NCBI GenBank assembly: GCA_013361095.1
Contig: JAATWA010000001.1
Coordinates: 124,001 to 188,000 of the forward strand
Length of the DNA stretch: 64,000 nt
Source: Pseudanabaena biceps
GTDB lineage: Bacteria; Cyanobacteriota; Cyanobacteriia; Pseudanabaenales; Pseudanabaenaceae
Reading direction: 5' to 3'
Under the pieces are notes generated by a model, which was not told where the DNA came from, searched no databases, and worked only from the letters and a program-made list of their open reading frames with translations. Each line of letters starts with the position of its first letter. The first letter of the stretch is position 1. A program made the position numbers and the translations under genes. Of the stretch, positions 9,371-36,618 are shown piece after piece.

Positions 9371-9411
9371 AAAACAAAAAAGCCCTTGCTTTGCAAGGGC
9401 TTTTTTGTTTT
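9371..9411 (+). terminator. rho-independent terminator of tRNA-Glu
   Basis: A 19-bp perfect stem (AAAACAAAAAAGCCCTTGC) with a TTT loop and a T-rich tail follows the tRNA within 10 bases. Confidence 0.9.
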
Positions 9412-9421
9412 TTAGTAAATA

Positions 9422-9456
9422 CAAAGAGAGGTGACGCGATGCGCCGCCTCTCTTTT
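9422..9456. terminator. hairpin after dapB
   Basis: AAAGAGAGG pairs with CCTCTCTTT around a GACGCGATGCGCCG core, directly downstream of the dapB stop on the minus strand. Confidence 0.65.
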
Positions 9457-9460
9457 ATTT

Positions 9461-10282
9461 TTAAAGTAATTTTTCTAATCCATATACGAGCGACTTCAAA
9501 GCTAATACCTTACGAACGCACAACAGCACACCAGCCATATAACAAGTGCGATCGCTAGCATTATGTTCAATCTTTAGGGTTTCGCCCATAGCACCAAAAA
9601 TTATTTCCTGACGCGCTACCAATCCAGGAATACGCAAACTATGGATACGGATATTGTTGCCATAGGTTGCGCCTCTTGCACCGACAAGATGCTCTTTTTC
9701 TTCAACACTGACAGGGTTAAAGGCTTGCCCCAACTCTGAAAGCATTTGGGCAGTTTTAATGGCTGTGCCACTAGGTGCATCGGCTTTTTGGTTGTGGTGA
9801 AGCTCAATAATTTCCACATGTTGAAAATACTTAGCAGCGGCGATCGCAGCCTGTTGCATCAAAATTACGCCGACAGAAAAATTGGGGGCGATGATGCAGC
9901 CTGTACTAGATTTATCGGCAAATATGGCAAGCTCGGCGATTTGTTGCTCAGTTAAGCCTGTTGTGCCAACCACAGGACGAACGCCATAGGCGATCGCAGA
10001 ACGAATGTTGTCATAGATGATGCTGGGGTGGGTGACATCAACCATAACTGGCAGTTGGGACTCTTGAGCAGCTTGAGCAAGGACAACCTCTAAATTATCG
10101 GTGACTGGTATTTCTAACTCGCCAATACCAATGACTTCACCAATATCTTCACCAATATGTTTACGACCGATCGCACCAACGAGGTTAATATCTGGCGTTT
10201 GGGCGATCGCTTTAATAATTTCGCGTCCCATTTTGCCCGTTGCACCAGCAACAACAACAGGAATTTGTGAATTAGTGGTCAT
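9461..10282 (-). CDS. dapB: 4-hydroxy-tetrahydrodipicolinate reductase DapB
   Basis: DapB reduces hydroxy-tetrahydrodipicolinate in the diaminopimelate/lysine pathway, supplying cell-wall and protein precursors. The nucleotide-binding GATGKMGR is at 13-20. The family signature [15 protein letters not shown] carries the catalytic His-His and the Lys and Asp of the active site. The 273-residue length is typical of cyanobacterial DapB. It is flanked by hairpins and appears monocistronic. Confidence 0.95.
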
Positions 10283-10355
10283 GGATTAAAACTTGAAAGC
10301 ATATAGCTTTGAGCTTAGCTTACAAGCTAGCTAGTTGCGCCAAAGATTACCAGTC

Positions 10356-10434
10356 TAAAAATAGACATTAAAACCCAAGGATCAGCGTTGCGGCGCTTCG
10401 CGCCGCAACGTCTAATTTTTCACTGGGAAGGGAG
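10356..10434. repeat. left-truncated TA-type palindromic element
   Basis: From 10356 the sequence matches the elements at 31771-31858 and 33617-33709. It has a CGTTGCGGCGC-TTC-GCGCCGCAACG hairpin at 10386-10410 and ends in CACTGGGAAGGGAG. The CTCCCTTCCCA left end is missing. A fragment ACAATGAGAATTGCTGG at 10451-10467 matches the end of the composite element at 39.7 kb. Confidence 0.7.
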
Positions 10435-10549
10435 CAGTTCCGAGGTTTTCACAATGAGAATTGCTGGACGGCAATGGTGAGAGCAATACTAAGATTGGAA
10501 ACACTATATAATTTGCAACTATTAACTAAATTTAGAGAAATCTAGAATT

Positions 10550-11206
10550 ATGACTGTGGCAACAGCATCAAAACCCCTAAGAGTTCTCATCGTTGAGGAT
10601 GATCCGCTCATTCAGCTTGGGCTAGAGCAATCACTCTCTCAGCAACCAAACATCACCATACTTGGTGTAGCTGATGACGGTTATATGGGCATAAAAATGG
10701 CGCAAGAGCTGAAGCCAGACATCGTGGTCATGGACATTGGCTTGCCCAGACTGGATGGGATTTCGGCAACACAAAAGATTAAAGCCCTATTACCTAACAT
10801 CCATGTGGTGATGTTAAGCTCCCACACCGATGACAATGAGATCATCTCGGCTCTATCAAGTGGTGCAGATGCTTACTGTGTAAAAGGGACAAGTACTGAT
10901 AGCCTCTTAGCAGCTTTTGCCGCCGCCAAGGATGGAGCGACCTATATCGATCCGCAGGTTGCTCGCAAAGTGATGGAACATCTCAAGCCTCCAGCCCAAT
11001 CGATCCAAGATTCGCATCTATCACAGCGTGAACTTGAAGTCTTAAAGTTGATTGTTGAAGGCAAAAGTAATCCTGAAATTGCCGCAGTCTTATATCTCAG
11101 CCCTAATACAATTAAGACTCATGTACGGGGCATCATGAATAAATTATCGGTTGACGATCGCGTACAGGCAGCGGTAGTTGCCTTGCGTTCAGGGTTAGTT
11201 AACTAA
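10550..11206 (+). CDS. NarL/FixJ-family response regulator
   Basis: An N-terminal receiver domain (about 10-125) carries the phospho-acceptor D62 in VMDIGLPRLDG, the acidic pair E16/D17 with D18 and the conserved K112. A C-terminal LuxR-type helix-turn-helix follows (about 150-215, SQRELEVLKLIVEGKSNPEI). Such proteins are DNA-binding outputs of two-component systems. No histidine kinase is adjacent, so partner and regulon cannot be inferred. A strong terminator follows the stop. Confidence 0.9.
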   Translation: MTVATASKPLRVLIVEDDPLIQLGLEQSLSQQPNITILGVADDGYMGIKMAQELKPDIVVMDIGLPRLDGISATQKIKALLPNIHVVMLSSHTDDNEIISALSSGADAYCVKGTSTDSLLAAFAAAKDGATYIDPQVARKVMEHLKPPAQSIQDSHLSQRELEVLKLIVEGKSNPEIAAVLYLSPNTIKTHVRGIMNKLSVDDRVQAAVVALRSGLVN

Positions 11207-13599: not shown

Positions 13600-13673
13600 G
13601 AACGCATAGCTCAGTTGGTTAGAGCACCACGTTGACATCGTGGGGGTCGGTGGTTCGAGTCCACTTGTGTTCA
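13600..13673 (+). tRNA. tRNA-Val (GAC), integration target
   Basis: The cloverleaf has acceptor GAACGCA/TGTGTTC (one G-U pair), D arm GCTCAGTTGGTTAGAGC, anticodon GAC in loop TTGACAT, and T arm GGTGG/CCACT with loop TTCGAGT. The 3' 48 bases are repeated exactly at 27173, marking it as the attachment site of the island that follows. Because integration replaced its 3' part with the element's copy, the tRNA stays intact. TTGAAT and TATATT elements lie at 13561 and 13582. Confidence 0.93.
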
Positions 13674-13675
13674 TA
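13626..13675. other. attL core (50-bp direct repeat)
   Basis: Identical to 27173-27222. It runs from the anticodon arm of tRNA-Val to two bases past its 3' end. Similarity to the right end continues less perfectly to about 13750. Confidence 0.92.
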
Positions 13676-13779
13676 GGCTGGAGAGCCAATAACAGTAAGG
13701 CTTTTGGGAGTCCCGATCAACTCCTGAAGGTCTATTCTAGTGTCAATAAGACAATATATTTAGGCTGTTAAGGGTTGTT

Positions 13780-14922
13780 TTGGGTAGTAACTTTACCCCG
13801 AAATTTACCCCGATGAAAATTACTATAGAAGACCATTGCGGACGGCTGAGACTAAGATGGCAGTACGAAAGCAAGCGCTACACGATGGCTGTTGGTGTTA
13901 ACAATGATGCAACAGGAAACGCAGTAGCACGAAAGAAATCCTCAGAGATCGAACTAGATATGCAAGCGGGGTATTTTGACCCAACTTTGCTAAAGTACAA
14001 GCCCAAAATTCTCGGAAAAACCGCTACAGAAATCACGGCTCCTGAGTTATTTACCAAGTTTACGCAGAATCAAGCCAAGGAAAAAAATTTAGCTAACCGT
14101 TCGATTGAGGCTAGATATACTCCAATTTTGAGATATCTTGAGCGATCGCTAAATGTCCCATTGCATCAAGTGACAGAACGTTTAGCTGGAGACTTTGCCT
14201 CGCTTCAACTGGAAAATGTAACCGCCCGAACTGCAAAAGAAAGACTGTGGTTGCTTAAAAGCTGTTGGGATTGGGCTAAGGGTAAACATCATGTCACTGA
14301 GGAGAACCCTTGGACAAATCAAATCAAGCGGATTAAACCGAGTCCACAGATAAAGAGGGTTAAGCCATTTAGTAAGGCGGAGATCTTGGCTATACTGAAT
14401 GCTTTTAAAAATCATCCCCACTATCAGCATTATTACCCTCTAGTATCTTTTCTATTTGGTACTGCTTGTCGTTTTGGTGAAGCAGTTGGGCTAAAGTGGA
14501 AAAATGTAGATGATGATTTCAACAATGTATTTATCTGTGAATCTGTAAGCAGGGGAGAACATCGCAACACGACTAAGACTGGTAAGAGTAGATATGTTGT
14601 AATCAGTCCTGCGATCGCTACTATGTTGCGATCGTTAAAAGAACAAACCAAACCTTCTCCTGACGATCTTGTATTTCCATCGCCTAAAGGTGGAGCGATC
14701 GACGATCACAACTTCAACCGTAGAGCATGGCGCACAATTATCAATCAGTTGGGGATTGAGTACCGTAAGCCTTACTCAACTAGGCATACTGCGATTAGTC
14801 ATGCTCTAGAGAATGGGGCAAATTATTTGCAAGTGGCTGAAGCATCAGGACATAACCCTAAAGTCATGCATCAGAGCTATGCATCTGTAATTCAAGCACA
14901 GTCTGTTTTTGTTGAGTTTTAA
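13780..14922 (+). CDS. int: tyrosine recombinase (phage-type integrase)
   Basis: The protein has an N-terminal arm-binding domain (MKITIEDHCGRLRLRW), a SAM-like core-binding domain (about 85-185) and a C-terminal catalytic domain. Catalytic residues are R231 (TACRFGEAVGL), K266 or K269, R335 in YSTRHTAIS, H358 in GHNP, and nucleophile Y367. The first residue of the HxxR box is Tyr332. The TTG at 13780 has AAGGG 6-7 bases upstream; ATG 13813 is the alternative. It should catalyse integration at the adjacent tRNA-Val. Confidence 0.92.
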   Translation: MGSNFTPKFTPMKITIEDHCGRLRLRWQYESKRYTMAVGVNNDATGNAVARKKSSEIELDMQAGYFDPTLLKYKPKILGKTATEITAPELFTKFTQNQAKEKNLANRSIEARYTPILRYLERSLNVPLHQVTERLAGDFASLQLENVTARTAKERLWLLKSCWDWAKGKHHVTEENPWTNQIKRIKPSPQIKRVKPFSKAEILAILNAFKNHPHYQHYYPLVSFLFGTACRFGEAVGLKWKNVDDDFNNVFICESVSRGEHRNTTKTGKSRYVVISPAIATMLRSLKEQTKPSPDDLVFPSPKGGAIDDHNFNRRAWRTIINQLGIEYRKPYSTRHTAISHALENGANYLQVAEASGHNPKVMHQSYASVIQAQSVFVEF

Positions 14923-14926
14923 ATTA

Positions 14927-15021
14927 TTAGTACTTACGCATCAAGCAGATGTGGCAAGGATTTCATCTGCACTACATCTACCTATAATCCAGTAAATTAG
15001 TTAGCATTGCGTAAGTCCTAA
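14927..15021. repeat. MITE-like element with ACTTACGCA ends
   Basis: TTAGTACTTACGCA on the left and TGCGTAAGTCCTAA on the right are inverted repeats around about 67 bp of unique sequence with no reading frame. The same ends occur at 31535-31685. Its right end abuts the start codon of the next gene. Confidence 0.75.
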
Positions 15022-15023
15022 CT

Positions 15024-15896
15024 ATGAAAAAACTGTTTGCTAAGTATAACTTTTTACGGTTTTCAGTAACTATTGATGGGAAAACTCATTATGTGCCAAG
15101 CGATCAGATGTTGCGAGAGGTATTACCTACACTTCCAAACATGGCTGAGCAAGAAGAGCTATGTCTTGACTCCAATTATTTTGTCTTGTCCCTACTATTC
15201 GATCCGCCTGATGAAGTTGTCAAGAAAGAATTAGAGATCTGGAAAAATTGCTGCAAAAGTATAGGGAGATCTTTTCAGCAATATTATAAAGCTGGCATTA
15301 CGATATCTTGGTTTGTATCAATTATTGATACTAAAACCTGTCCACCACGTCTTGAATACAGAGCTTTTAATTGGTATTTGGAAACATTTGAGCAAAGGCT
15401 AAATAATGAATCCTTTTATGAATTTGATAAGCCACTGCCAATTGATACTCCATTAACAAGATTCAAGGAATATCGTGATGCCTGTACGACTATTGATGAA
15501 GTTTATATTGAAACTGTCGAAGAAGCAAAAACTAATAATGTTCTTACCTCTCAATTGCGCTCTTGGATTAAACTAAAAAAGAAAGAGGCGCATGAGCGAT
15601 ATCGCGACAATACTGTGGAAGTTGCTATAACGCAATGTTTACAGTGTGGACGGATATTTGAGTATCCATTGGGTAGGGGAAGATCTGAGACACCTTCGCA
15701 TTGCAAAGACGAGGCTTGCGAAAAACGATACGATCGAACAAAACCGTCAAAACTAAACCGATCTTCAAAATCTGATTGGAAGTCAGCAGGACGTAAAAGA
15801 GGCAGATGTAAATCATGTAAAAAATCTCGAATACTAGATAGTAATCGCAACTGTGAAGAATGCTATTTAGAAATTCAGTCTTGGGGCAATTTCTAA
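15024..15896 (+). CDS. island protein with two C-terminal zinc-ribbon motifs, function unknown
   Basis: The 290-residue protein begins with an unrecognised domain of about 190 residues. A likely zinc ribbon follows (C205, C208, C227, C232), then a basic linker rich in Ser/Lys/Arg and a second cysteine set (C262, C265, C277, C280). Two metal-binding knobs and a basic linker suggest nucleic-acid binding. Position between integrase and primase fits a role in the element's own maintenance, which is inference. The preceding ACTTACGCA repeat ends two bases before the ATG, so any native leader has been replaced. Confidence 0.6.
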   Translation: MKKLFAKYNFLRFSVTIDGKTHYVPSDQMLREVLPTLPNMAEQEELCLDSNYFVLSLLFDPPDEVVKKELEIWKNCCKSIGRSFQQYYKAGITISWFVSIIDTKTCPPRLEYRAFNWYLETFEQRLNNESFYEFDKPLPIDTPLTRFKEYRDACTTIDEVYIETVEEAKTNNVLTSQLRSWIKLKKKEAHERYRDNTVEVAITQCLQCGRIFEYPLGRGRSETPSHCKDEACEKRYDRTKPSKLNRSSKSDWKSAGRKRGRCKSCKKSRILDSNRNCEECYLEIQSWGNF

Positions 15897-15927
15897 AATT
15901 TTCAATCATCCAACCTAGTTAGCAAAT

Positions 15928-15983
15928 AAAACCCAGAAAGGTGATAGGCAGCGTAAATCGCCGCTATCTACTTTCTGGGTTTT
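15928..15983. repeat. AAAACCC...GGGTTTT hairpin repeat
   Basis: AAAACCCAGAAAGGTGATA pairs with its near complement around a GGCAGCGTAAATCGCCG centre. It follows the zinc-protein stop and may act as a terminator. Confidence 0.7.
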
Positions 15984-16165
15984 GTGTTTTGGCTTTATTG
16001 GCTATCAAAATATGTTTTTCAGGGGACAAAAAACGTAACACCCTCTTAAAAAGAAACTGCTTTCATATGGTTATCGCTCGCTAAAAGCCTTACAAGTTTT
16101 CTCCAGCTAGAAAGCCGATAGCAACTAAAAAAGCAAATATTTTTTCTAATTGAGGTTACTTAACT

Positions 16166-16441
16166 ATGCAACAAAACTATCCATTTGTTAGTACGCGCAC
16201 CCTAAGATCTTGTCATTTTGAGATTGGCAAGTTTGGTGAAGCCCAACTTAGAAAGCAACTGCAAAGTCCTTTGTATTGGATTCAGCCAGATCGTAAAGTT
16301 CTTTGGAATTTAGTGCTGGTTCGTGACTATCTACTTAATGGTGATTCTCCATCACATCAACGTTTAATTGAGTCATACCTTTTAACCTTACAGAATGGTC
16401 AATCCATCCCTAGCGGACAAACTAAGAAGAAGACGAAGTAA
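16166..16441 (+). CDS. small basic island protein, possible excisionase or DNA-binding regulator
   Basis: The 91-residue protein contains STRTLRSCHFEIGKFGEAQLRK and YWIQPDRKVLWNLVLVRDYL, a helix-turn-helix-plus-wing arrangement reminiscent of excisionases, and ends in a Lys/Thr tail. The assignment is from general appearance only. It is the first gene of a likely unit with the prim-pol gene (55 bp gap) and helicase. Small genes in this position often control excision or replication of integrative elements. Confidence 0.5.
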   Translation: MQQNYPFVSTRTLRSCHFEIGKFGEAQLRKQLQSPLYWIQPDRKVLWNLVLVRDYLLNGDSPSHQRLIESYLLTLQNGQSIPSGQTKKKTK

Positions 16442-16496
16442 CTAATGGCAAATTGCTGAGAGCATTTTGCACACCATTTAGAACAGGGGGAATAGA

Positions 16497-17873
16497 ATGA
16501 ATGAATCTGAGTTAATAGGTATTCAGGCGATCGCTACTTACTGGCAATTAATACCACTGAGGGATAAATCACCTGCAATTGGGGGAAATGATTGGTATAA
16601 CAAAGATTTTGCGCTTGACGAGATTCGCAAACTTATTACAAGCAAGAAAGCTACTGGATTAGGGGTAAAGTTGGGGATTGCTAGTAATGGATTGATGTGT
16701 GTTGACATTGACGGTCAGCCTGCGATTGATCTTTTAAAAGCCGATTACCCACCGTTACCTCAAACTGTATCTAGCACATCAAGAGAGGGCAATGAGGCTC
16801 ATTATTACCTCGTTCCTAATCAATATTGGGAATTGCTAAAGCGAGATGAAATTAAAACTGGTAAGACCTACATCAAGGCTAACGGTAAAGAAACGGAATC
16901 TAAGATCGAGCTTAGGTGGGGGATTATGCAGCAAGCCTTACCGCCATCTATACACCCTGACACTGGAGAGCCTTATAAGTGGATTCACTCACCAAAAGAT
17001 ATCGCAGTAGCCATTGTTCCCGAATGGATACTTGAGTTAATGTCACCTAATTATGAAGATACAAAATCTCTAGTTCCACAACCCTCTATACCTCGAATCA
17101 TTTCTAGTTATTCTTGTAAGCCTAGTGAAGCTGATCGCGCTAGGGAATTTCTAAAATACATTGATGCTTCTAAGGCTGATGGTTATGGTGATTGGATTGG
17201 TGTGGGGATGACGCTAGCAAGTGTTGATGATTCTTTATTGCCAGACTGGATCGAATTTTCACGACGATCGCCTAAATTCGTAAATGAACATGATTGCGAG
17301 AAGCGATGGAAGAGTGCCAATTGGAAAAAAGATAACTTCAATCATGCAATGGGTAAACTCTGCAACTGGGCTAAGGATGGAGGATGGAAGCCCAAACCAA
17401 AATCCGAACGAAGCCCTAAGAACGGTAAAAGAGAGAAGATTCAACCGCTTACTAGGATGGATATTGCCAAGCTAGACGGAATTGATGTAAAGGATGAGAA
17501 GTATTTTGTAAATCTTTCTCAGCTTTGCGATCGCCAAATCAAAAATATTTTGCAAGGGAAATCGCAGGATATTGATCAAGATAAATTGATTGCTACTTAC
17601 AAGGAATTGAAGGGATGGGAAAACATTTTACTAAAGTTTTCCCCTGACACCATCAGGTATTGCCGTCCTGAAACTATGATGCGGAATCTCTGTAATGACC
17701 GACTTCATTTGAATATAGACAAAGGTCTTAGGGCTATTCCCAATCAAGATTCTCTATTACCGTCTTTGCATTATACCGAAGGCGATGACGCAATCAATCA
17801 AGTTATTCAGACTTGGAAAATGAAAATTACACCACATTTTGAGGAAGACAATGAAAGTTTTATCCAATTCTAA
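16497..17873 (+). CDS. bifunctional DNA primase/polymerase (prim-pol) with PriCT_2 domain
   Basis: The N-terminal 190 or so residues match the prim-pol fold found in plasmid and phage primases. GVKLGIASNGLMCVDIDG includes the metal-binding pair D70 and D72, and HYYLVP follows near 101. A PriCT_2-like helical domain comes next (AREFLKYIDASKADGYGDWIG to about 290). The last 160 residues are a less conserved helical region. Such proteins prime replication of mobile elements together with a D5-type helicase, which is encoded next. The GGGGGAATAGAATG leader gives a good ribosome site. Confidence 0.82.
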   Translation: MNESELIGIQAIATYWQLIPLRDKSPAIGGNDWYNKDFALDEIRKLITSKKATGLGVKLGIASNGLMCVDIDGQPAIDLLKADYPPLPQTVSSTSREGNEAHYYLVPNQYWELLKRDEIKTGKTYIKANGKETESKIELRWGIMQQALPPSIHPDTGEPYKWIHSPKDIAVAIVPEWILELMSPNYEDTKSLVPQPSIPRIISSYSCKPSEADRAREFLKYIDASKADGYGDWIGVGMTLASVDDSLLPDWIEFSRRSPKFVNEHDCEKRWKSANWKKDNFNHAMGKLCNWAKDGGWKPKPKSERSPKNGKREKIQPLTRMDIAKLDGIDVKDEKYFVNLSQLCDRQIKNILQGKSQDIDQDKLIATYKELKGWENILLKFSPDTIRYCRPETMMRNLCNDRLHLNIDKGLRAIPNQDSLLPSLHYTEGDDAINQVIQTWKMKITPHFEEDNESFIQF

Positions 17874-19821
17874 GGACAACAAGAAAATCGATAAAGCCGC
17901 AGCTTTTGAAGCAAAAGAGCTTAAAAACTTGCGTATGAGAGTTGAGAGTGTATTCCGAGAAACCCTCAAATACAACCTTGAGATCAAGGAATGGCATGAG
18001 TATGACGGTGGAGTTTGGAGGCGGATTGATGTTGATGAAGTGGCGGCGCGATCGCGTCAATTGTTGCATGATTTAACCTGTAATGATGATTTCTTAGAAG
18101 GCATTCCGCCAAACAAGAAACAGATTGCAGAATTTATGAATGCTTTACAGCATGACGTACAGATCAAGAAATTTGACACTGACGATAAATACCCAGATCT
18201 GATCAATTTTAAAGATTGCGTCTTGAACTGCCGAACGCTCGAAACTTTTCCACACGATCGCAAATACAATTTTAATTGGCAACTCCCACACAACTGGAAA
18301 GATCGGGATAAAGGTTGCAAGCCTATTATCGATTGGCTTGAGTGGTCGCTTTATGGCGCTAAGGATACGTTAAAACTTTTGCTTTGCTTCCTAAATGCGA
18401 TCGTCAAAAAGCGGACTGACATCCAAAAGCTAGTTCAACTGAATGGAACTGGCGGATCGGGTAAATCAACATTTCAGAAATTAGCGATCGCCCTTGTCGG
18501 ATCTGAGAATTGCAAAGAAACTACTATTGAACAACTAGACAATCAGTTTGAATCTGCTAATTTTTATGGCAAGCGTTTGATTACCATCTCGGAAATTGGC
18601 GACTATAAGGGGAGTGGAGCCGCCTTAAAACGTCTTACTGGGGACGATAAACTGAGATATGAGGTTAAGGGCATTCAAGCGCGTACTGACTTTGTGTATC
18701 AGGGAAAAGTTTCAATCGTGGCGAATAAGGAGTACGCACCAAAAGAAGCTGGATCATCTTGGGCAAGACGTAATATTGCGATTAAATTTGATCGCGTTGT
18801 TCCTGAAAGCGAAAAACGGAACCTTATTTCAAGCTTGCCTGATGGTAACTTTACTGGAGAATTTGTTCCATATATTCCTGCCTTGATCGAGATTGTTTTG
18901 AGTATCCCCGATGAAGAAGTGAAGCAGTATTTAGAGCAGACTTGCAAGTTTGTTCCGAGCTTGTCTGGAGAAAGAGCTAATTCAATTCTTAACGACGAAC
19001 CGATCGCACAATGGCTTGAGGATTGTTGTGTTCTGATTCCTGATGCTATTACTTACATTGGTAAGGCTGAGCGTCAAAATATCTCGGTCGGAGATGCAGG
19101 GCATAAAATCTCACATACTGAATTTAGAAATCAGGATATTTGGCTTCATGCCAATTACGCTAAGTTTTGCTTAGATCGGGGTGTCTCTGCTGTTGGGTTT
19201 CAGCGCTTTTCTAAAAACGTATTGGATATCATGATTGGAGCGCTCAAAATTGACTCTGTAACTAAGCTTGAGAAAGACTCAAGGGGTGTTGCTCTGAAAG
19301 GTATTGCTATTCGTACCGAGGCACATCATCACATCCTCACACCTGTTAGAAATTTGTTAATTGGCTATTCTGACGATTCAATAGTGATTTCTGACGATTC
19401 AATGACGAATGAAATCCTTAGCAATGCCAATGTTGACGATTTTGACGATAATTTTGCAACTTTGCATAACAGCAATAAAAACAACGCTGTATTAGATGAC
19501 TCGGTTACAAGAAATGGTATCAACACTACGCATATAGATAAATCTGAAAACACTGTCAAAATCGTCAACGTTGTCACTGGAGAGGATTCCCATCGTCAGG
19601 GTATCGTCAACCAATCGTCACCAATTGAGATCGCATCAAAAATCCACAATTTCAAAGTGGGGGATAAGGTGAAATATGTTGGCAATCATGAAATCTATCA
19701 AAAATTCTTTGCGGAGAAAATTCTCCTATTGCATTTGATTACTGCTTTTGGATGCGATTGCGAAAAAGAAGATGGCTCGCTCACCCCAACTTTTTCATTA
19801 AGTGACATTGAGTTAGCTTAG
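17851..19821 (+). CDS. D5-type phage/plasmid primase-associated helicase (SF3 ATPase)
   Basis: The ATP-binding motif GTGGSGKST is at 199-207. ITISEIGDYKG matches Walker B, and VSIVANKEYAP carries the sensor Asn of SF3 helicases. An N-terminal D5_N-like region precedes it. I chose ATG 17851 over TTG 17839 because GAGGA lies five bases upstream. The start overlaps the prim-pol stop by 23 bp, so translation is probably coupled. The C-terminal 150 residues are Asp/Asn-rich with repeated DDS motifs. It likely unwinds DNA for the element's own replication. Confidence 0.85.
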   Translation: MKVLSNSKDNKKIDKAAAFEAKELKNLRMRVESVFRETLKYNLEIKEWHEYDGGVWRRIDVDEVAARSRQLLHDLTCNDDFLEGIPPNKKQIAEFMNALQHDVQIKKFDTDDKYPDLINFKDCVLNCRTLETFPHDRKYNFNWQLPHNWKDRDKGCKPIIDWLEWSLYGAKDTLKLLLCFLNAIVKKRTDIQKLVQLNGTGGSGKSTFQKLAIALVGSENCKETTIEQLDNQFESANFYGKRLITISEIGDYKGSGAALKRLTGDDKLRYEVKGIQARTDFVYQGKVSIVANKEYAPKEAGSSWARRNIAIKFDRVVPESEKRNLISSLPDGNFTGEFVPYIPALIEIVLSIPDEEVKQYLEQTCKFVPSLSGERANSILNDEPIAQWLEDCCVLIPDAITYIGKAERQNISVGDAGHKISHTEFRNQDIWLHANYAKFCLDRGVSAVGFQRFSKNVLDIMIGALKIDSVTKLEKDSRGVALKGIAIRTEAHHHILTPVRNLLIGYSDDSIVISDDSMTNEILSNANVDDFDDNFATLHNSNKNNAVLDDSVTRNGINTTHIDKSENTVKIVNVVTGEDSHRQGIVNQSSPIEIASKIHNFKVGDKVKYVGNHEIYQKFFAEKILLLHLITAFGCDCEKEDGSLTPTFSLSDIELA

Positions 19822-19831
19822 TTGGCAAAAC

Positions 19832-19873
19832 TAATCCTGTGAGCTTTTTAGTTGTTATAAGTTCACAGGATTA
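19832..19873 (+). terminator. hairpin after the D5 helicase gene
   Basis: TAATCCTGTGA and TCACAGGATTA pair across about 20 bases, 11 bp after the stop codon. It separates the replication genes from the promoter of the Abi_2 locus. Confidence 0.65.
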
Positions 19874-19899
19874 CCTAAAAACTTCACTATTCTTTAGTG

Positions 19900-19935
19900 T
19901 TGACAGTTGACATACAAAATGTGAAGATGTTGCTA
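19900..19935 (+). promoter_or_regulatory. putative promoter of the hairpin RNA / Abi_2 gene
   Basis: Two overlapping -35-like hexamers occur: TTGACA at 19900-19905 and TTGACA at 19907-19912. From the second, 17 bases lead to TTGCTA at 19930-19935. Transcription would start near 19940-19943, at the foot of the RNA hairpin. Confidence 0.5.
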
Positions 19936-19939
19936 ATAA

Positions 19940-19992
19940 GACCCGCCAAGGCTATGCGAAAGTATCCTCAAATTGGTGGGTTGCTCATTTTT
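19940..19992 (+). ncRNA. candidate structured RNA upstream of the Abi_2 gene (abiF RNA-like)
   Basis: The segment between promoter and start codon folds into an outer stem, ACCCGCCAA (19941-19949) with TTGGTGGGT (19973-19981, one G-U pair). Inside it, GGCTATGC and GTATCC pair with a two-base bulge and a GAAA tetraloop at 19958-19961. The stem is followed by a run of T. Conserved RNAs called the abiF motif are known upstream of Abi_2/AbiF genes. This is my identification by position and shape, not by a covariance search. Confidence 0.5.
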
Positions 19993-20002
19993 AGGGGTAT
20001 TA

Positions 20003-20899
20003 ATGACGCGCAAATTTGCTAAACCTGCTAAAACTTTTCAAGAGCAGGTGCAATTGCTTCAGTCACGGGGGATGCTCATCGAAGATGTACAGGAAGCAAT
20101 ATTTTACCTACAGCATCTTAACTACTATCGACTTGGTGCGTATTGGTTGCCTTTTGAGTTAGACCATGCCACACATCAGTTTAAGCCTAATACAAGATTT
20201 AAAGATGTACTTAGGCTTTACATTTTTGATAGAGAGCTTAGGCTACTAATGCTAGATGGGATTGAGCGAATAGAAGTATCAGTCCGAAGTCAATGGGCTT
20301 ATCATCTTGCAACTTTGCATAATCCTCATGCTCATCTTGACTCAAACCTATTTAAAGCCAAATATTGGCAAAAAGATCTCAATGCTCTGACAGAAGAAGT
20401 GAATAGATCGCAAGAGACTTTTATTGACCATCTACGAGATACCTACAGCGAACAACTACCGCCAGTTTGGGCAGTATGTGAAATTATGTCGATTGGGTTA
20501 TTATCTCGATGGTATGGAAATTTAGAACCATATCAAACCCGTTCTGCGATTGCTAAAGCTTACAAAATAAATCACTATGTTTTAGGCTCATGGATTCATC
20601 ATCTCTCTATAGTGCGTAATTTTTGCGCTCATCATTCAAGGTTGTGGAATAGAGAGTTTTCAATTATTCCAGCAGTCCCAAAAAGTAGAAATAACCCAGT
20701 CGTTAACCAGTTTGTCCAACCGTCGCGCAAAATATATAACACCTTGGTTATTGTGCTGTACTTCATGGATACGATCGCCCCAAAACATCACCTGCGATCG
20801 CGACTGCTCAAATTGTTAGATGAGCATCCAGACTTATTAACTGGCATGGGTTTTCCTACTAATTGGCAACAGATGAGTATTTGGCAAAATTTGAACTGA
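20003..20899 (+). CDS. Abi_2 / AbiF-like HEPN protein (abortive infection)
   Basis: The protein matches the Abi_2 family along its length, from [13 protein letters not shown] and [16 protein letters not shown] to the C-terminal [14 protein letters not shown]. The last motif is the R-x4-H HEPN ribonuclease signature (R205, H210), so it is probably an RNase toxin that acts in phage defence. I chose ATG 20003 because AGGGG lies 5-10 bases upstream; the frame is open to TTG 19973. It lies between the element's replication genes and the type I restriction genes, in a typical cargo position. Confidence 0.87.
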
Positions 20900-20969
20900 T
20901 TTACGCAATTTAATCGACAATATAAATTAATTGTGGGTAAATAAACTGTGGAAACCGCGAGAATTTGGC

Positions 20970-23339
20970 ATGAGTCTCAATGAAGCTGATACAAGGGCAA
21001 AACTAATTGATCCTGCCCTGCGTAATTGTGGGTGGACTGAAGACCATATCAAACGCGAAGAAACGGCGGGTAGCATTACGATTTGGAATGGTAAGGCGCG
21101 TAAGCAACGTAAGGGAAGGATTGATTACACTTTGCGGCTAAGGGTTAGTGATGATACGCAACCTGTGGCTGTGGCATTGATTGAGGCAAAAGCTGAGGAC
21201 TTGTCGCCTGCTCATGGATTGGAGCAAGCAAAAAACTATAAATTATTGGGCGATCGCTTTCATGTGCCATTTGTATTTAGTACCAATGGTCATTTATTTG
21301 TCGAGTTCGATCGCTTTACAGGACTGACTAGCAAGCCAATGCCGATCGCTAATTTTCCGAGTCCTGATGCATTGCGATCGCGCTATGAGCAGAATATGGG
21401 TTTTGGGTTAGAAGATGAAGCGGCTAAACCCTTATTAACTCGTTATACCAATGGCGAAGGATCGCGCCGCTATTATCAAGACGCGGCAATTCGGGCAGCT
21501 TTAGAGAAAATTGCTCAAGCTAAGAAGTTAGGGGAAGCAGGACGGGTATTGCTGACTTTGGCAACGGGGGCGGGTAAAACTTTTATTGCGGTTAATTTGC
21601 TGAAACGGATCGCTGATGCGGGGCAGATGACTCGCGCTTTATTTATTTGCGATCGCGATGAGTTACGGATACAAGGCGCAAAAGCTTTTCGAGATTTATT
21701 TGGGGCTAATGCGGCAACGGTTGAGGCAGGGAACCCGCAGAAAAATGCAAGGGTTTTAATTGCGACCTATCAAACTTTGGATGTGGACAATGACGATGCA
21801 ACCGCTAATTTTTTGACTACCCATTATCCCGAAAATTATTTTAGTCACATCATTATTGATGAGTGCCATCGTTCGGCTTGGGGCAAATGGTCACAGGTGC
21901 TAACTCGCAATCCTAACGCGGTGCAAGTTGGTTTGACTGCCACACCGAGAGAGTTAGACATTATTAGCGATACGTCTGAAGCCCAAGCCGATGTCAAAAT
22001 AACGGCGGATAATCTGCGTTATTTTGGTGAGCCTGTGTATGGTTATGACATTTCTCAAGGGATTGAGGATGGTTATTTAGCCGCCTGCTCTATCCCAGCG
22101 CTTAAAGTGAATATTGATGATACTGGAATTACGCAAAAGCAAATTTTAGAACGTAACCCAAAGGATGCTCGAACGGGACTACCGATAACAGAGGAGCAAC
22201 TGAAAGAACGTTACGAGAAAGCTAGTTTTGAAAATCGCATCATGCTACCCGATCGCGTTTTAGCGATGTGTCGAGATTTGTTTAAGCATTTGTTGGAGTC
22301 GGGTACACCTGAGCAAAAAACAGTAATTTTTTGTGCGCGGGATAGTCATGCTGAAGAAGTGGCGATCGAGATGAATAATCTCTATGTTCAGTGGTGTAAA
22401 GAAAATGACCAGAAAGCGGTGACTAATTACGCTTTTAAATGTACGGCTAAAAGTGGTGGTAAGGACTATCTAGCAGATCTCAAGGGTAGCAATCGTAATT
22501 TTTTCATCGCGACGACGGTTGATCTGTTGTCAACGGGTGTAGATATACCAAGTTTGCGAAATGTGGTGTTTTTTAAATATGTAAAGTCTCCGATTTCGTT
22601 TTATCAGATGGTGGGGAGAGGGACGCGCCTTGATGTGACTACAAATAAGCTGATGTTTACGATGTACGACTACACCGAGGCTCGAAAGTTATTTGGTGAG
22701 GCATTTTTAACTAAGCTTCAGCCAAAATCCGAAGGTGGTGGGGAACCGCTTACGCCTCCACGTCCTCCTGAACCGATTATCACGGTGGAAGGCTTTGATA
22801 TAGAAATTACTGATGCAGGGCGCTATATTCTCACGACGGTAGACGGGAAAGCGATGCCTGTGAGTGTTGAGGAGTACCAAGAGCAATTGATCTCTAGGTT
22901 GGTAAGTGCTGCACCTACGCCCGATCGCTTTCGGCGGCGTTGGGTTGTGCCTGATGAGCGACGGGATCTCATCAATACTATGGTTAATGGTGGGGTATCT
23001 CCAATGGTGGTGCAGTTGGTGCGCGATATGCAGGACTATGATCTGTATGATGTGTTGGCAGAGTTGGGCTATGGGTTGAATCCACGCACAAGGATGACGA
23101 GGGTAATTGAGTTTTCGATGAAGCAGCAACAATGGTTAAATGATATGCCTGCCAAAACTGCGGCGACGATTAACGCGATCGCTCAGCAGTTTATCGCTTC
23201 GGGAATTGAGGGTTTAGAGAATCCGACAATTTTTCAAGTCCCTGAAGTTGTTAGGGCTGGTGGTTTGCCTGCTTTGAAGCAGTTGGGTAAGCCAATGGAG
23301 ATTATTCAGGAAACGAAGGTGAGGTTATTTGCTGCTTAA
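20970..23339 (+). CDS. hsdR: type I restriction enzyme R subunit HsdR (EcoEI-like)
   Basis: The 789-residue protein starts at ATG 20970, giving the family-typical MSLNEADTRAKLIDPAL. It has an N-terminal PD-(D/E)xK nuclease (IDYTLRL with D52, LIEAK with E72 and K74), an SF2 translocase core (ATGAGKT at 198-204, IIDECHRS, LTATPRE, QMVGRGTR) and an EcoEI_R-type C-terminus. HsdR cuts DNA after ATP-driven translocation in complex with HsdM and HsdS. It is the first gene of the hsdRSM set, with a 93-bp gap before hsdS. The frame is intact. Confidence 0.93.
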   Translation: MSLNEADTRAKLIDPALRNCGWTEDHIKREETAGSITIWNGKARKQRKGRIDYTLRLRVSDDTQPVAVALIEAKAEDLSPAHGLEQAKNYKLLGDRFHVPFVFSTNGHLFVEFDRFTGLTSKPMPIANFPSPDALRSRYEQNMGFGLEDEAAKPLLTRYTNGEGSRRYYQDAAIRAALEKIAQAKKLGEAGRVLLTLATGAGKTFIAVNLLKRIADAGQMTRALFICDRDELRIQGAKAFRDLFGANAATVEAGNPQKNARVLIATYQTLDVDNDDATANFLTTHYPENYFSHIIIDECHRSAWGKWSQVLTRNPNAVQVGLTATPRELDIISDTSEAQADVKITADNLRYFGEPVYGYDISQGIEDGYLAACSIPALKVNIDDTGITQKQILERNPKDARTGLPITEEQLKERYEKASFENRIMLPDRVLAMCRDLFKHLLESGTPEQKTVIFCARDSHAEEVAIEMNNLYVQWCKENDQKAVTNYAFKCTAKSGGKDYLADLKGSNRNFFIATTVDLLSTGVDIPSLRNVVFFKYVKSPISFYQMVGRGTRLDVTTNKLMFTMYDYTEARKLFGEAFLTKLQPKSEGGGEPLTPPRPPEPIITVEGFDIEITDAGRYILTTVDGKAMPVSVEEYQEQLISRLVSAAPTPDRFRRRWVVPDERRDLINTMVNGGVSPMVVQLVRDMQDYDLYDVLAELGYGLNPRTRMTRVIEFSMKQQQWLNDMPAKTAATINAIAQQFIASGIEGLENPTIFQVPEVVRAGGLPALKQLGKPMEIIQETKVRLFAA

Positions 23340-23432
23340 AAATAGGTTGATCGCTTTTAGTTCTGACTGGTGACAGGTTGGGACAGACAAATAATTTAAA
23401 CGATTTATTTTTTAGGGTGTGTTTGGGTATTT

Positions 23433-23720
23433 ATGACTGAGAAAAATGGGGGATTACATAAAGGTTGGAAGTCAGTAAAGTTATCGGATGTTTGCGAACT
23501 TAATCCTGCTAGACCTCGTGAAATGAAAAGAAGCGATGATGCAGCTACAAGCTTTGTTCCTATGGCATCTGTTAGTGCTGAGTTCGGGAAAATTGCTGAT
23601 CCTTTAGTTAAACCATTTTCAGAAGTTAAAAAAGGTTACACATACTTTGCAGAAGGTGATGTACTTTTTTCAAAAATTTCGCCTTGTATGCAAAATGGGG
23701 CGTTGCATAATAAAGTATGA
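23433..23720 (+). pseudogene. hsdS: hsdS 5' fragment, interrupted by IS1-family element
   Basis: The first 88 codons encode the start of a type I specificity subunit (GWKSVKLSDVCELNPARPRE, YTYFAEGDVLFSKISPCMQNG). At 23699 an insertion sequence begins and the frame stops inside it at 23718-23720. The rest of the gene resumes at 24460. Removing the IS and one 8-bp duplication restores a single frame of 409 codons including the stop. Confidence 0.92.
23691..23698. repeat. 8-bp target-site duplication, left copy (CAAAATGG)
   Basis: CAAAATGG flanks the IS on both sides (23691-23698 and 24452-24459), as expected for an IS1-family insertion. Confidence 0.9.
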
Positions 23721-24451
23721 GTTGAAGCAAGAGCGATGAAATGTCCAAAGTGCGGGTCAGATCACATACGCAGAAATGGAATTAAGCAAGGAAAACAAAA
23801 TCACATTTGTGCTGAATGTGGACGACAGTTTATAAATCCCAGTGAACAAACCAAAGCGTTCCCAGAAACGACAAAACAAACTTGCCTGAAGATGTATCTC
23901 AATGGCATGGGATTCAGGGCTATTGAGAGAGTGATGGGAGTACATCACACCACAGTCATTGATTGGGTTAAACAAAAAGGTAAGAAGTTACCCGATTCAA
24001 TCGCCCCCGAAAATGTCCCCAATGTTGGCGAATTGGATGAGCTGGAAACATTTGTCGGCTCAAAAAAAAACAAGATTTGGGTATGGACAGCAGTAGACCA
24101 TTTTCGTAAGGGCATCCTAGCTTGGGCTTTAGGCGATCATAGTGCTGAGACTTTTGAGCCATTATGGGCAATTGTGGCAGCATGGCAATGCTATTTCTAT
24201 GTCACTGACGGTTGGACTGTATATCCAAGCTATATCCCTGATGGTGATCAGATTATTAGCAAAACATACATGACTCGAGTTGAGGGTGAAAACTCTCGGT
24301 TACGCCACTATCTAGCAAGATTGCACCGTAAAACCTTCTGTTATTCAAAGTCTTTAGAAATGTTGCGTTATTCTGTGCGACTCCTGATTCATTATCTTCA
24401 TGACTCTTCTGTCCTGTTCTCTCCATGATTCATACTTTATCCTGCAACGCC
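23699..24451 (+). mobile_element. IS1-family insertion sequence (copy A, intact)
   Basis: The element is 753 bp, flanked by 8-bp direct repeats. Its ends are imperfect inverted repeats, GGCGTTGCATAATAAAGTAT on the left and GGCGTTGCAGGATAAAGTAT read inward from the right. It has one transposase gene on the plus strand and lies inside hsdS in the same orientation. Confidence 0.92.
23736..24428 (+). CDS. IS1-family transposase (single ORF)
   Basis: The 230-residue protein has an N-terminal zinc finger (MKCPKCGSDHIRRNG, HICAECGRQF), a helix-turn-helix (MGFRAIERVMGVHHTTVIDWV) and the IS1 DDE catalytic core (GELDELETFVG, YVTDGW, TRVEGENSRLRHYLARLHRK). It corresponds to InsA and InsB joined without the programmed frameshift seen in classical IS1. 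No disruption is visible, so it is probably active. Its stop overlaps the next start as ATGA. Confidence 0.92.
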   Translation: MKCPKCGSDHIRRNGIKQGKQNHICAECGRQFINPSEQTKAFPETTKQTCLKMYLNGMGFRAIERVMGVHHTTVIDWVKQKGKKLPDSIAPENVPNVGELDELETFVGSKKNKIWVWTAVDHFRKGILAWALGDHSAETFEPLWAIVAAWQCYFYVTDGWTVYPSYIPDGDQIISKTYMTRVEGENSRLRHYLARLHRKTFCYSKSLEMLRYSVRLLIHYLHDSSVLFSP

Positions 24452-25420
24452 CAAAATGGTAAACACGCGATCGCCAGTAACTTGATAGACGGTATTGGCT
24501 TTGGAACTACAGAATTTCATGTTGTTCGCCCAAGTTCAGAAATTCTTGCTGAATGGGTTCATAAGTTTTTACGTCAGCCCAAAATATTAAATTCGGCAAC
24601 AGAGTTATTTACTGGTTCTGTAGGTCAGCAAAGAGTACCTGAAAGTTTTATCGGCGATCTTGAAATCCCTCTCCCACCTCTTCCAGAACAAAAACGCATC
24701 TTAGCCATATTAAATGAGCAGATGTCAGGCGTAGAGAAAGCCCGCGCCGCCGCCGAAGCCCAACTACAAGCCGCCAAAACTCTAACCGCCGCCTATCTCC
24801 GCGAAGTTTTCGACAGCCCCGAAGCTCAAAAATGGGAGAGAAAAACATTAGGAGATATATGTCGTGACATTTCTGATGGTAGTCACTTTACACCAACATA
24901 TATATCTAAAGGCATCCCCTTTTTATCTGTCAAAGATGTAAAAGAAACAGGAATATCATTTAATGATTGTCGATATATTAGCGAAGAACAACATAAAGAT
25001 CTTTGTAGAAGATGCAAACCAGAAATAGGGGATGTCCTTTATACAAAGGTCGGCACAACTGGTATAGCAAAATCAGTTGATGTTGAAAGAGAATTTAGCA
25101 TTTTTGTTAGCGTTGCTCTTTTAAAATTGACTCCTCAAGTACTTCCTGATTATCTAGAAAAAATCCTTAATTCTCCTCTTTGTAGAGTTCAGTCTGCCAA
25201 TTTAACACAAGGAGCAGCAAATAGAAACCTAGTAATTAGAGACATCAAGCGTATTACATTACCTTTGCCACCATTAGAAGTACAACAGCATCTTGTAACA
25301 GTTATTACGGAGGATATGACTAACATGAAACACTTACAACGATCGCTACAAGACCAACTCAACACAATCAAACAACTACCCGCCGCCCTGCTTCGACAGG
25401 CATTTAACGGAGAATTATAA
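24425..25420 (+). pseudogene. hsdS: hsdS 3' fragment (end of TRD1, central region, TRD2), possibly translated
   Basis: The frame opens at an ATG inside the IS end, overlapping the transposase stop, and enters hsdS sequence at 24460. The product contains the end of TRD1, the central conserved helix (PPLPEQKRILAILNEQMSGVEKARAAAEAQL), a whole second TRD (GDICRDISDGSHFTPT onward) and the C-terminal conserved helix. Half-sized HsdS proteins of this layout can dimerise and give new specificities in some type I systems. Whether this one does is unknown. It ends one base before the hsdM start codon. Confidence 0.85.
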
Positions 25421-25421
25421 A

Positions 25422-26984
25422 ATGGCAAAAGCAGCAAAAAACAGTAACGGACGTAAATTTAATACCCAACAAAGCCTCGACGGATATATCAAATCCGCTT
25501 GCGACATCATGCGCCGATCCAACTGTGCAGGCGCACTGCAATACGTCCCCGAACTCACATGGATACTATTTCTACGAATCCTCGATGAACTGGAAATGCA
25601 AGAAGCCGAACAAGCCGAAGCCGTCGGCGCAAGCTTTACCCCATCCCTACAACAGCCCTACCGTTGGCACGACTGGGCAGCCCCCGAAAGCGATGACCTG
25701 TTAAATATGCGTGATGGACTAAACCAAGGCTGGAAACGCAAAGAACTTATCATAGGTACACTCGAAGACTTTCCCCACTTTGTTAATAACGGACTACTAC
25801 CCTATCTCAAAACTTTGCGCGATCGTCCCAATGCCACATCGCGCCAAAAAGTTATCAGCGAAATCCTCTCAGGCGTTGAACGTACCCGCGTTGACACCGC
25901 CAAAAACCTACTAGATATCCTCGACAAAATCCACGAAATCCGCAACGAAAACATCAGCGACACCCACATCTATACCCTCTCGCAAGTCTATGAAGGACTA
26001 CTACTAAAAATGGGTGAAAAGGGCAACGATGGCGGACAATTTTTCACCCCTCGCGTTGTCGTTCGCGCCATGATCCAAGCGATCGATCCACAAATTGGCG
26101 AAACCGTCTATGACGCAGGCTGTGGTACAGGCGGATTCCTAGCCCAAGCTTACGAACACATGGCAGGCAAAGACCTCAGCAACATCACCAACCCCGATCA
26201 ACTCGAAACCCTCAAACACCAAACCTTTTACGGACGTGAAAAAGACAACGCCATCTACCCGATCGCACTTGCTAACTTAATTTTACATGGCATTGACGAG
26301 CCGCACATCTGGCATGGCAACACCCTCACAGATTCCATAACCTATGACGGACTTTTCACAAATGCTCCCAGTCAATACGATGTCGCCCTGATGAATCCAC
26401 CCTTCGGCGGCAAAGAAGGAAAAGAAGCACAAACCAACTTCAACTACAAAACCAGTTCCACTCAAGTTCTCTTCATTCAACACGTTCTCAAAAGCCTCAA
26501 ATCCACAGGACGCTGTGGCATTGTCCTCGATGAAGGTATCCTTTTCCGCAACAACGAAACCGCCTTTGTCCAAACCAAAGTGAAATTACTTGATGATGCC
26601 GATGTCTGGTGCATTGTCAGCTTACCCGCAGGCGTATTTACATCCGCAGGTGCAGGCGTGAAAACCAATATCCTGTTTTTCACCAAAGGCAAATCCACCG
26701 AAAGCATCTGGTATTACGACCTCTCCGACCTCAAAATCAACAAAAAAACACCAATCACCCTCGAACACTTTGAGGACTTCTTTAAGCTCCTGCCCACCAG
26801 AGCCGATAGCGATCGCAGTTGGACAGTCACCAGAGAAGCGATCATAGCCAAAAACTACGACCTCAAAGCTGTTAACCCCAATGCCAAAACCGAAGAAGAT
26901 ACCCGTACACCTCAAGACCTCCTAGACATCATCGCTAGTAAAGGGAAGGAAGTTGATCAAGCTTTAGCGTTACTCAGAAAATAG
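25422..26984 (+). CDS. hsdM: type I restriction-modification DNA methyltransferase HsdM
   Basis: This N6-adenine methyltransferase of 520 residues has an HsdM N-terminal helical domain, the QFFTPRVVV entry motif around 206-214, the SAM-binding motif DAGCGTGGF at 231-239 and the catalytic NPPF at 325-328. With HsdS it protects host DNA; with HsdR it forms the restriction complex. It starts one base after the hsdS stop, so translation is coupled. Its codons are strikingly rich in C at third positions compared with hsdR, hinting at a different history. The frame is intact. Confidence 0.94.
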   Translation: MAKAAKNSNGRKFNTQQSLDGYIKSACDIMRRSNCAGALQYVPELTWILFLRILDELEMQEAEQAEAVGASFTPSLQQPYRWHDWAAPESDDLLNMRDGLNQGWKRKELIIGTLEDFPHFVNNGLLPYLKTLRDRPNATSRQKVISEILSGVERTRVDTAKNLLDILDKIHEIRNENISDTHIYTLSQVYEGLLLKMGEKGNDGGQFFTPRVVVRAMIQAIDPQIGETVYDAGCGTGGFLAQAYEHMAGKDLSNITNPDQLETLKHQTFYGREKDNAIYPIALANLILHGIDEPHIWHGNTLTDSITYDGLFTNAPSQYDVALMNPPFGGKEGKEAQTNFNYKTSSTQVLFIQHVLKSLKSTGRCGIVLDEGILFRNNETAFVQTKVKLLDDADVWCIVSLPAGVFTSAGAGVKTNILFFTKGKSTESIWYYDLSDLKINKKTPITLEHFEDFFKLLPTRADSDRSWTVTREAIIAKNYDLKAVNPNAKTEEDTRTPQDLLDIIASKGKEVDQALALLRK

Positions 26985-27172
26985 TTTGGTATAGATTAGG
27001 CGATCGGCGCTCATCCAAATTGTTTTAATTTCGCTTTAATGCACGATTAATCCCTTACTTACCAAATGTATAATTGTTTGCAAGGAAAAATCAATTACCC
27101 CGATTTTTACCCCGTCACCTTGTTGACAATGCCCAAAAGTCTTACTCTACAAACTTTCTAGCAAATGAAGAT
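26985..27172. other. right end of the island, with paired TTACCCCG motifs
   Basis: This 188-bp segment between hsdM and attR has no gene. TTACCCCG occurs at 27095-27102 and 27107-27114, spaced 12 bp. The same pair with the same spacing is at 13793 and 13805 near the left end. They are candidate integrase arm-binding sites. Confidence 0.5.
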
Positions 27173-27222
27173 ACCACGTTGACATCGTGGGGGTCGGTGG
27201 TTCGAGTCCACTTGTGTTCATA
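27173..27222. other. attR core (50-bp direct repeat, tRNA-Val 3' fragment)
   Basis: Exact copy of 13626-13675. It holds the displaced 3' part of tRNA-Val and marks the right end of the island. The weaker homology beyond it is split by IS copy B and resumes at 28005. Confidence 0.92.
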
Positions 27223-27226: not shown

Positions 27227-28004
27227 GGCGTTGCACAAATGAAGGATGAATGAGTAAATAAAAGACAACGAGTTTAAGCAATGAAACATAATGAAATGTC
27301 CAAAGTGCGGATCATCACATATTCGTAAGAATGGGAAATGAGGAGACAAGCAAAATCATATTTGCGCTGATTGTGGTCGTCAGTTCATCGATAGCTACTC
27401 AGTACTTGGGTATTCTCAAGATATCAAGAAAATATGTCTAAAAATGTACTGTAACGGCATGGGATTTAGACAGATCGAGAGATGCACCGATGTTAGCCAT
27501 AATTCAGTCATCAACTGGGTGAGAGAAGTAGCCAAACCATTACCCGAGCATCCACCGATTGAGACTATTCCTGATGTTGGTGAACTAGATGAACTCCAGA
27601 CTTTTGTTGGGTCAAAAAAAAACTTGATTTGGCTATGGACTGCGGTGAATCATTTTAGCCAAGGTATATTGGCTTGGGTATTAGGCGATAGGAGTAGTCA
27701 AACCTTTAAAACTCTATGGACATTGATTAAAGTTTGGCAATGCTATTTCTGGGTTACCGATGGCTACTGTGTCTATAAAATGTTTGTTAACTCGGAAGAT
27801 CAAATTATTAGCAAAACCTACATGACTAGAGTTGAGGGTGAAAATACAAGACTGAGACATTATCTTGCCCGATTGCATCGCAAAACTTTATGTTATTCAA
27901 AATCGGAAGAAATGTTGAGACATTCAATTCGTTTGTTAATTCACTATCTTAAGTACAAATCAATTCCTAGCTTTTCTTGATTCATCTTTCATTTGTGCAA
28001 TGCC
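27227..28004 (+). mobile_element. IS1-family insertion sequence (copy B, decayed)
   Basis: This 778-bp element is flanked by the 8-bp duplication CATAAGCT (27219-27226 and 28005-28012). Its inverted ends read GGCGTTGCACAAATGAAGG on the left and GGCATTGCACAAATGAAAG from the right. It is related to copy A but clearly diverged, so the two are different members of one family. It lies just outside attR. Confidence 0.9.
27291..27980 (+). pseudogene. IS1-family transposase with premature stop
   Basis: The frame starts at ATG 27291 with MKCPKCGSSHIRKNGK, then meets TGA at 27339-27341 (codon 17). The same frame continues with GDKQNHICADCGRQF and the complete helix-turn-helix and DDE core to 27980. 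Copy A reads through at the equivalent place. A protein starting at ATG 27444 would lack the zinc finger, so it is probably inactive. Confidence 0.88.
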
Positions 28005-35329: not shown

Positions 35330-36010
35330 CTATGAAAGTTGTCCAAATCTTTCAATTAAATCAAACACCAAATTTTCTCGACCGTAGCTAGATGATGGCA
35401 AAAAGCTCAAGACTGCTTCCTCCAAATCATTCTTATTTTCTCGAAACCAATCCCCCAGAAAAGCTTTCACTTCTCCCTGAGCTTTATTAAATCGATCTTC
35501 TAATACCTCACAGCCATCCAACAAAATCACAATATCTTCAACATCTTTAGACAAACGCAAATCCTTACCGCGACCTAAAAATGCTTCAACCTTACTTGCC
35601 AGCAAATATATCGGTGAAAAAATCCAAATATCTCGGTTACTTGGCAACCTATAAGTTATTTTATTGGCAATCCCCTCCTTATACCAACTATTACTAAACC
35701 CTAAAACCTCTTTATCACAAGGCATCACGTCCACCAGCAAGTCTTGATATACCCAGCGACATAATGGCGCGTTCTGTTCTGTACATTCTTGCAATCCAAT
35801 CTCACGCAAACGTTTCGCCAAAGAATAATATTCAACCTTTGAATAAATCTCTACTACACAATCCACATCCTTAGTCGGACGTACTTCGTCCCACAAAATC
35901 TCATCTATATATAACGATATCGTCGCACCACCCGTAAATACGAACCGATCTGGTAAACAAGCTAAAACTGACGCGACCCTTTCTAAATTTTCTATCTGAG
36001 GATTACTCAT
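35330..36010 (-). CDS. nucleotidyltransferase of AbiEii type (putative toxin)
   Basis: The 226-residue protein has the minimal nucleotidyltransferase signature: a GG turn (FVFTGGATISLYI, 25-37) followed by the DxD-type pair in PTKDVDCVVE (45-54), and the YLLASKVEAFLGRGKDLRLSKDVEDIVILL region typical of AbiEii-like proteins. Type IV toxin-antitoxin toxins of this fold modify tRNA or protein targets. It overlaps the upstream HTH gene by 8 bp, indicating coupled translation, and ends next to tRNA-Ala. Role as a toxin is inference from pairing and fold. Confidence 0.75.
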   Translation of the reverse strand: MSNPQIENLERVASVLACLPDRFVFTGGATISLYIDEILWDEVRPTKDVDCVVEIYSKVEYYSLAKRLREIGLQECTEQNAPLCRWVYQDLLVDVMPCDKEVLGFSNSWYKEGIANKITYRLPSNRDIWIFSPIYLLASKVEAFLGRGKDLRLSKDVEDIVILLDGCEVLEDRFNKAQGEVKAFLGDWFRENKNDLEEAVLSFLPSSSYGRENLVFDLIERFGQLS

Positions 36011-36506
36011 ATAACCTCTTTTTTAATTCCAGAGCAGCCAACTCTTGCTCTCGTATCTTACCTATTCGCAGACTATCCACTAAGCACAGCATCTCGTAAA
36101 ACCGCATATCGTCTTCTACTACCTCTGGCACAGAACGATAAAGAGGCTTAATTGCAAGTCCCTTTATTTTCCCTCTCGGCGAAGCCCACACAAAAGCAGA
36201 ATCATTACTTACTACTAATAATCTCTTTAATGGTTCCGCAGAGTGAGCAGTAGGTATACCCCGCACCAGACTTCCTGCTTTAGCTGAAAAAACATACTTC
36301 AGACCATGTACTAAAAACTCCTCCAAAGCACCTTTCAAAACAGTTCTTTTTTTAGCACTATATAGATGACATTCCTCACAACGCTGTAATGCATCATGCA
36401 CTACAGATGAGCTAGTCTTTAAGCTTTTTGCCAACTCAGCATAAGTCCATTGTGAATTCAAGCAGTGAACCTTAAGCAATATAACAATGTCTTGAGGTTT
36501 GAGCAT
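36003..36506 (-). CDS. winged-helix regulator paired with the nucleotidyltransferase (AbiEi-like antitoxin)
   Basis: The N-terminal 65 or so residues form a helix-turn-helix (YAELAKSLKTSSSVVHDALQRCEE), as in MarR-like or AbiEi regulators. The remaining residues are an unassigned domain (GLKYVFSAKAGSLVRGIPTAHSAEPL). ATG 36506 is chosen over TTG 36515. The gene precedes and overlaps the nucleotidyltransferase gene, the layout of AbiE-type toxin-antitoxin loci, where this protein represses the operon and neutralises the toxin. No cognate inverted-repeat operator is obvious. Confidence 0.65.
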   Translation of the reverse strand: MLKPQDIVILLKVHCLNSQWTYAELAKSLKTSSSVVHDALQRCEECHLYSAKKRTVLKGALEEFLVHGLKYVFSAKAGSLVRGIPTAHSAEPLKRLLVVSNDSAFVWASPRGKIKGLAIKPLYRSVPEVVEDDMRFYEMLCLVDSLRIGKIREQELAALELKKRLYE

Positions 36507-36618
36507 AGATTTCAAAGATTAAACATCTCTATTCTATATTCGTGAATCATGAATGAAATGATCTTAGCCTTTGTTGGGATAAATTTATAGCCATAGTCAT
36601 CAATGTTAGGACAAAGCC

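Follow-up and report, generated by a model that had tools for sequence, protein, structure and literature searches.

A recent IS1-family insertion in hsdS probably silences a type I restriction–modification operon on a tRNA-Val integrative element of Pseudanabaena biceps

The window, a 64,000-nucleotide stretch of Pseudanabaena biceps DNA (assembly GCA_013361095.1, contig JAATWA010000001.1, positions 124,001 to 188,000), contains an integrative element at a tRNA-Val gene bounded by exact direct repeats (Table 1). The element encodes a tyrosine integrase, a Prim-Pol and a D5/P4-type helicase and carries as cargo an AbiD/Abi_2 abortive-infection gene followed by a type I restriction–modification operon in the order hsdR, hsdS, hsdM. 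Other genomes of the genus also have a related integrase beside this tRNA-Val gene, with 96% identity over the first half in one of them (G008). Similarity between the left and right ends continues beyond the exact repeat, and the whole could be a satellite-like element. Two further features were seen at or beyond its right end. The right attachment repeat has been hit by a second IS1-like element, which is flanked by its own 8-bp duplication (CATAAGCT) and whose transposase gene is interrupted early by an in-frame TGA. Farther along, beside a tRNA-Ala gene, two overlapping genes correspond to PDC-M21A and PDC-M21B, a candidate defence pair of PADLOC (E values of 2e-44 and 8e-52), the second gene also weakly matching AbiEii.

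Table 1 Features of the hsdS locus and its surroundings (positions in the window)
Feature	Position	Strand	Details
tRNA-Val gene	13600-13673		contains left repeat
Integrative element	13626-27222		~13.6 kb; carries the operon
Direct repeat, left	13626-13675		50 bp, exact; in tRNA-Val
Tyrosine integrase	13780-14922		adjoins tRNA-Val repeat
Prim-Pol	16497-17873		
D5/P4-type helicase	17839-19821		
AbiD/Abi_2 gene	19973-20899	+	upstream of hsdR
hsdR	20931-23339	+	802 aa as listed; ATG at 20970 is the likelier start
hsdS, 5' piece	23433-23720	+	95-aa ORF; PADLOC Specificity_I, 8e-28
Target-site duplication, left	23691-23698		CAAAATGG
IS1-family element	23699-24451	+	753 bp; three identical genome copies
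IS inverted repeats	23699-23720 and 24430-24451		20/22 bases identical
IS1 transposase	23736-24428	+	single fused 230-aa ORF; zinc ribbon and DDE domain
hsdS, 3' piece	24425-25420	+	331 aa; start ATG inside IS end
Target-site duplication, right	24452-24459		CAAAATGG
hsdM	25422-26984	+	520 aa, intact
Direct repeat, right	27173-27222		50 bp, exact
Second IS1-like element	27227-28004		778 bp
PDC-M21A/PDC-M21B-like pair	35330-36515	-	two overlapping genes

The element that splits hsdS belongs to the IS1 family based on its transposase, which scores above the curated cut-offs of the NCBIfam IS1 transposase model NF033558 (260 bits, cut-off of 100) and of Pfam DDE_Tnp_IS1 PF03400 (93.6 bits, cut-off of 24.1), and on its inverted repeats and the 8-bp duplications found at all three copies, a length within the 8-9 bp of the family. 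Its ends read GGCGTTGCATAATAAAGTATGA and GGCGTTGCAGGATAAAGTATGA. The transposase reads as one fused frame, positions 24062-24070 of which form an A9 run; many IS1 members, though not all, typically have two overlapping ORFs that a frameshift joins. The published ISCaa4 (PMC3196728) is likewise an IS1-family element with a zinc-ribbon plus DDE transposase of ~230 aa, a slippery A-run and an 8-bp target duplication, but there two ORFs are used, with a -1 frameshift predicted between them.

The octamer CAAAATGG abuts the element directly and exactly on both sides; the chance that two random 8-mers from the window are equal is ~5e-5. Across the genome (34 contigs, 5.57 Mb), we found three copies with 100% identity over 753 bp, flanked by exact duplications that all differ (CAAAATGG, CCAAAAGC and AACTTTTC). 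Because each copy has its own perfect duplication, the CAAAATGG repeat is a genuine target-site duplication rather than an error of assembly, and because the copies are also identical, the insertion into hsdS is recent; this combination is the signature of recent transposition by an active element. These data confirm two claims of the preliminary description, namely that an IS1-family element with an exact 8-bp duplication splits hsdS and that it did so recently.

In the rest of the genus, no full-length relative of the element exceeds 86% identity; an 86% identical relative in G003 has an A8 run with a frame break. The A-run preceding the DDE core varied among the IS1-like transposases that we compared (L001-L019 and L149-L158). 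An A9 run giving one fused ORF occurred in the three identical copies and in L009-L018; an A8 run, with a frame break needing frameshifting or slippage, in five copies (L004-L008), in L019 and in copies from other genomes of the genus; and an A7 run in L150. This variation resembles the IS1 slippery site, but homopolymer sequencing error could also account for the differences. A search of the plasmid collection returned no close match to the element, and its exact terminus GGCGTTGCA was not found in two short partial matches (L022 and L025).

The 5' piece contributes 88 codons and two bases of hsdS (23433-23698) before running into the left end of the IS, where it gains ALHNKV and then stops. 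The hsdS part of the 3' piece (24460-25420) holds the remainder of the first target recognition domain (TRD1), helix D1, TRD2 and helix D2. Joining 23698 to 24460 yields 1,227 nt free of internal stops. The preliminary description had excision restoring 409 codons; the uninterrupted frame stands, but the protein is 408 aa, the figure of 409 including the stop codon. The breakpoint lies inside the conserved TRD1 motif PCMQNGKHAIA, between the G and K codons, and several intact HsdS homologues carry this motif or a close variant uninterrupted at the IS position. Intact HsdS proteins fetched with their neighbouring HsdM align along the entire joined protein, with identity of up to 47%. Since the Pfam Methylase_S profile is divided between the pieces (5': 2-71 of 168; 3': 63-150), with TRD2 and both helices in the 3' piece, the break falls in TRD1, and it takes the two flanks together to encode both TRDs.

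The neighbouring genes are full length, with the nuclease, helicase, SAM-binding and NPPF motifs present. They are 72.7% (hsdR) and 81.7% (hsdM) identical to the R and M genes of G049, a genome from another family, and the R-S-M order recurs at 46 related loci. HsdR is closest to the EcoAI/FtnUII (type IB-like) family model NF046051, matching it over 16-589 with 442 bits, which is below the 550-bit cut-off; the gene order R-S-M is a further difference from that family. The HsdS order of type IB systems is D2-S1-D1-S2, whereas the protein here begins directly with TRD1 (S1-D1-S2-D2). As the preliminary description had also stated, we found no further damage in the operon: all frames are open once hsdS is rejoined and the catalytic motifs of R and M are kept. 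Based on these unbroken genes and motifs, the identity to G049 and the R-S-M order, it is plausible that the restriction system was functional before the insertion; open frames and intact motifs are consistent with prior function without proving it. The operon is absent from the other genomes of the genus that were searched (best HsdM, 36% identity). Among 291 genomes drawn from the class, four others have a close HsdM, and the search found no IS-free copy of this operon; closest is G049, whose HsdS is a different one and lacks the PCMQNGKH motif.

In the reading that we favour, a recently active IS1-family element transposed into codon 89 of hsdS, duplicating 8 bp of target. With TRD1 broken, full-length HsdS would no longer be made, and the intact HsdM and HsdR would be left without a guide, so that sequence-specific methylation and restriction would both be lost. 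In type I enzymes, methylation is carried out by the M2S trimer, with HsdS placing two HsdM subunits, and HsdR with them, on the bipartite site (PMC3874165). Because type I complexes need S for DNA binding and for holding two HsdM, we infer that the insertion into hsdS of the tRNA-Val element very probably abolishes both activities. Losing modification and restriction simultaneously should be safe for the cell. A related case is Staphylococcus epidermidis BPH0736, in which hsdR is interrupted by IS elements (PMC6918075). There too, the gene that is split belongs to a type I system on a mobile island and restriction is predicted to be lost, but methylation persists through intact hsdM and hsdS, whereas here hsdS is hit and both activities should go.

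The only other HsdS gene of the genome lies on contig C2 and belongs to a different system, whose hsdS and hsdR (1,044 aa) are intact. Of its hsdM only a C-terminal piece is left (positions 599-785 of the 1001-position profile), which ends where an IS630-type element begins (hsdM remnant at 8644-9327 and IS at 9328-10619 of locus L128, C2:220000-235000). The IS, assigned to its family from its ends and ORFs and not from a model, has many identical copies in the genome, and a relaxase-like ORF lies on its far side. A whole-genome search for N6-methylase domains found none on C2. As the C2 HsdS belongs to a separate system whose M is truncated, it is an unlikely stand-in; complementation by C2 is also unlikely in that its R and M fall into other model families. 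The genome has four other N6-methylase-like genes, on C17, so an m6A signal could not by itself be assigned to this hsdM, and methylation calling would be confounded as a check on the loss.

Alternatively, the operon may already have been inactive, with the insertion a neutral hit in dead genes. Polarising the lineage is not possible, since no other searched genome of the genus has the operon, and this leaves some room for such an account. We nonetheless consider it unlikely, given the catalytic motifs and the lack of other frame damage in all three genes, and given that hsdM has been under long-term constraint relative to G049 (dN of 0.13 and dS of 1.17; for hsdR, dS is saturated).

The 331-aa C-terminal half, open and translatable with TRD2 and both helices intact, could argue against inactivation. 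Re-initiated from the IS-supplied ATG, this D1-TRD2-D2 half would homodimerise, recruit HsdM and recognise a palindromic bipartite site set by TRD2 alone, converting a non-IC type I system to a homodimeric half-HsdS with its methylation specificity changed and not lost. We regard this as very unlikely. The ATG in the right end of the IS overlaps the transposase stop (ATGA at 24425-24428), an arrangement that would permit re-initiation, and in EcoKI, hsdM and hsdS are known to overlap by one base and to be translationally coupled (PMC3510504). However, no Shine-Dalgarno-like sequence was found before the ATG at 24425, and related IS copies do not consistently share the overlapping ATG, for which reason coupling was also rejected as a general property of the element. 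The frame does cover one complete TRD and the dimerisation helices: the AlphaFold model of the piece has a mean pLDDT of 88.6, with D1-TRD2-D2 confident from about residue 30 onwards except for 61-70, and Foldseek matched it to a solved HsdS (TM of 0.75 to 5ybb_D). Against this, a broken TRD1 remnant remains attached and the first ~30 residues are of low confidence. D1 and D2 are alike (alignment score of 93, where 500 shuffles reached at most 49), making it conceivable that two C-terminal halves pair.

Precedents for active half-HsdS proteins come from natural NgoAV (PMC3874165), from a staphylococcal system (PMC6158711) and from EcoDXXI, for which the review PMC3874165 describes active homodimers with palindromic sites after either a Tn5 insertion in hsdS or a designed N-terminal deletion (EcoDXXI-deltaN). 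As in the Tn5 case outlined there, a transposon has entered hsdS and one TRD with the helices stays open; by that same account, the natural EcoDXXI insertion kept the N-terminal half, whereas here it is the C-terminal half, predicted and in a non-IC system. Such homodimers were known by 2013 in type IC systems only (PMC3874165), and the order here is S1-D1-S2-D2. Should the C-terminal half prove active, it would parallel, in nature, the EcoDXXI truncation made in the laboratory.

A reversible on/off switch, with precise excision restoring hsdS in part of the population, is extremely improbable: the exact duplication and open joined frame mean that such excision would restore the gene, but an exact duplication accompanies every fresh IS insertion and hence is no evidence of reversibility, no invertible or silent hsdS cassette lies nearby and the assembly contains the occupied state alone. 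Invertible or shuffling hsdS genes were likewise rejected, the one other HsdS gene of the genome being part of another system.

Events of this kind are well documented, and unless the C-terminal half is active the insertion is an ordinary one. With this hsdS split and the C2 hsdM truncated, neither type I system of the genome appears intact, which suggests that an IS-rich genome has lost both. Inactivation by the recent IS1-family insertion is most likely a clean, recent case in which one mobile element has disabled a defence system carried by another.
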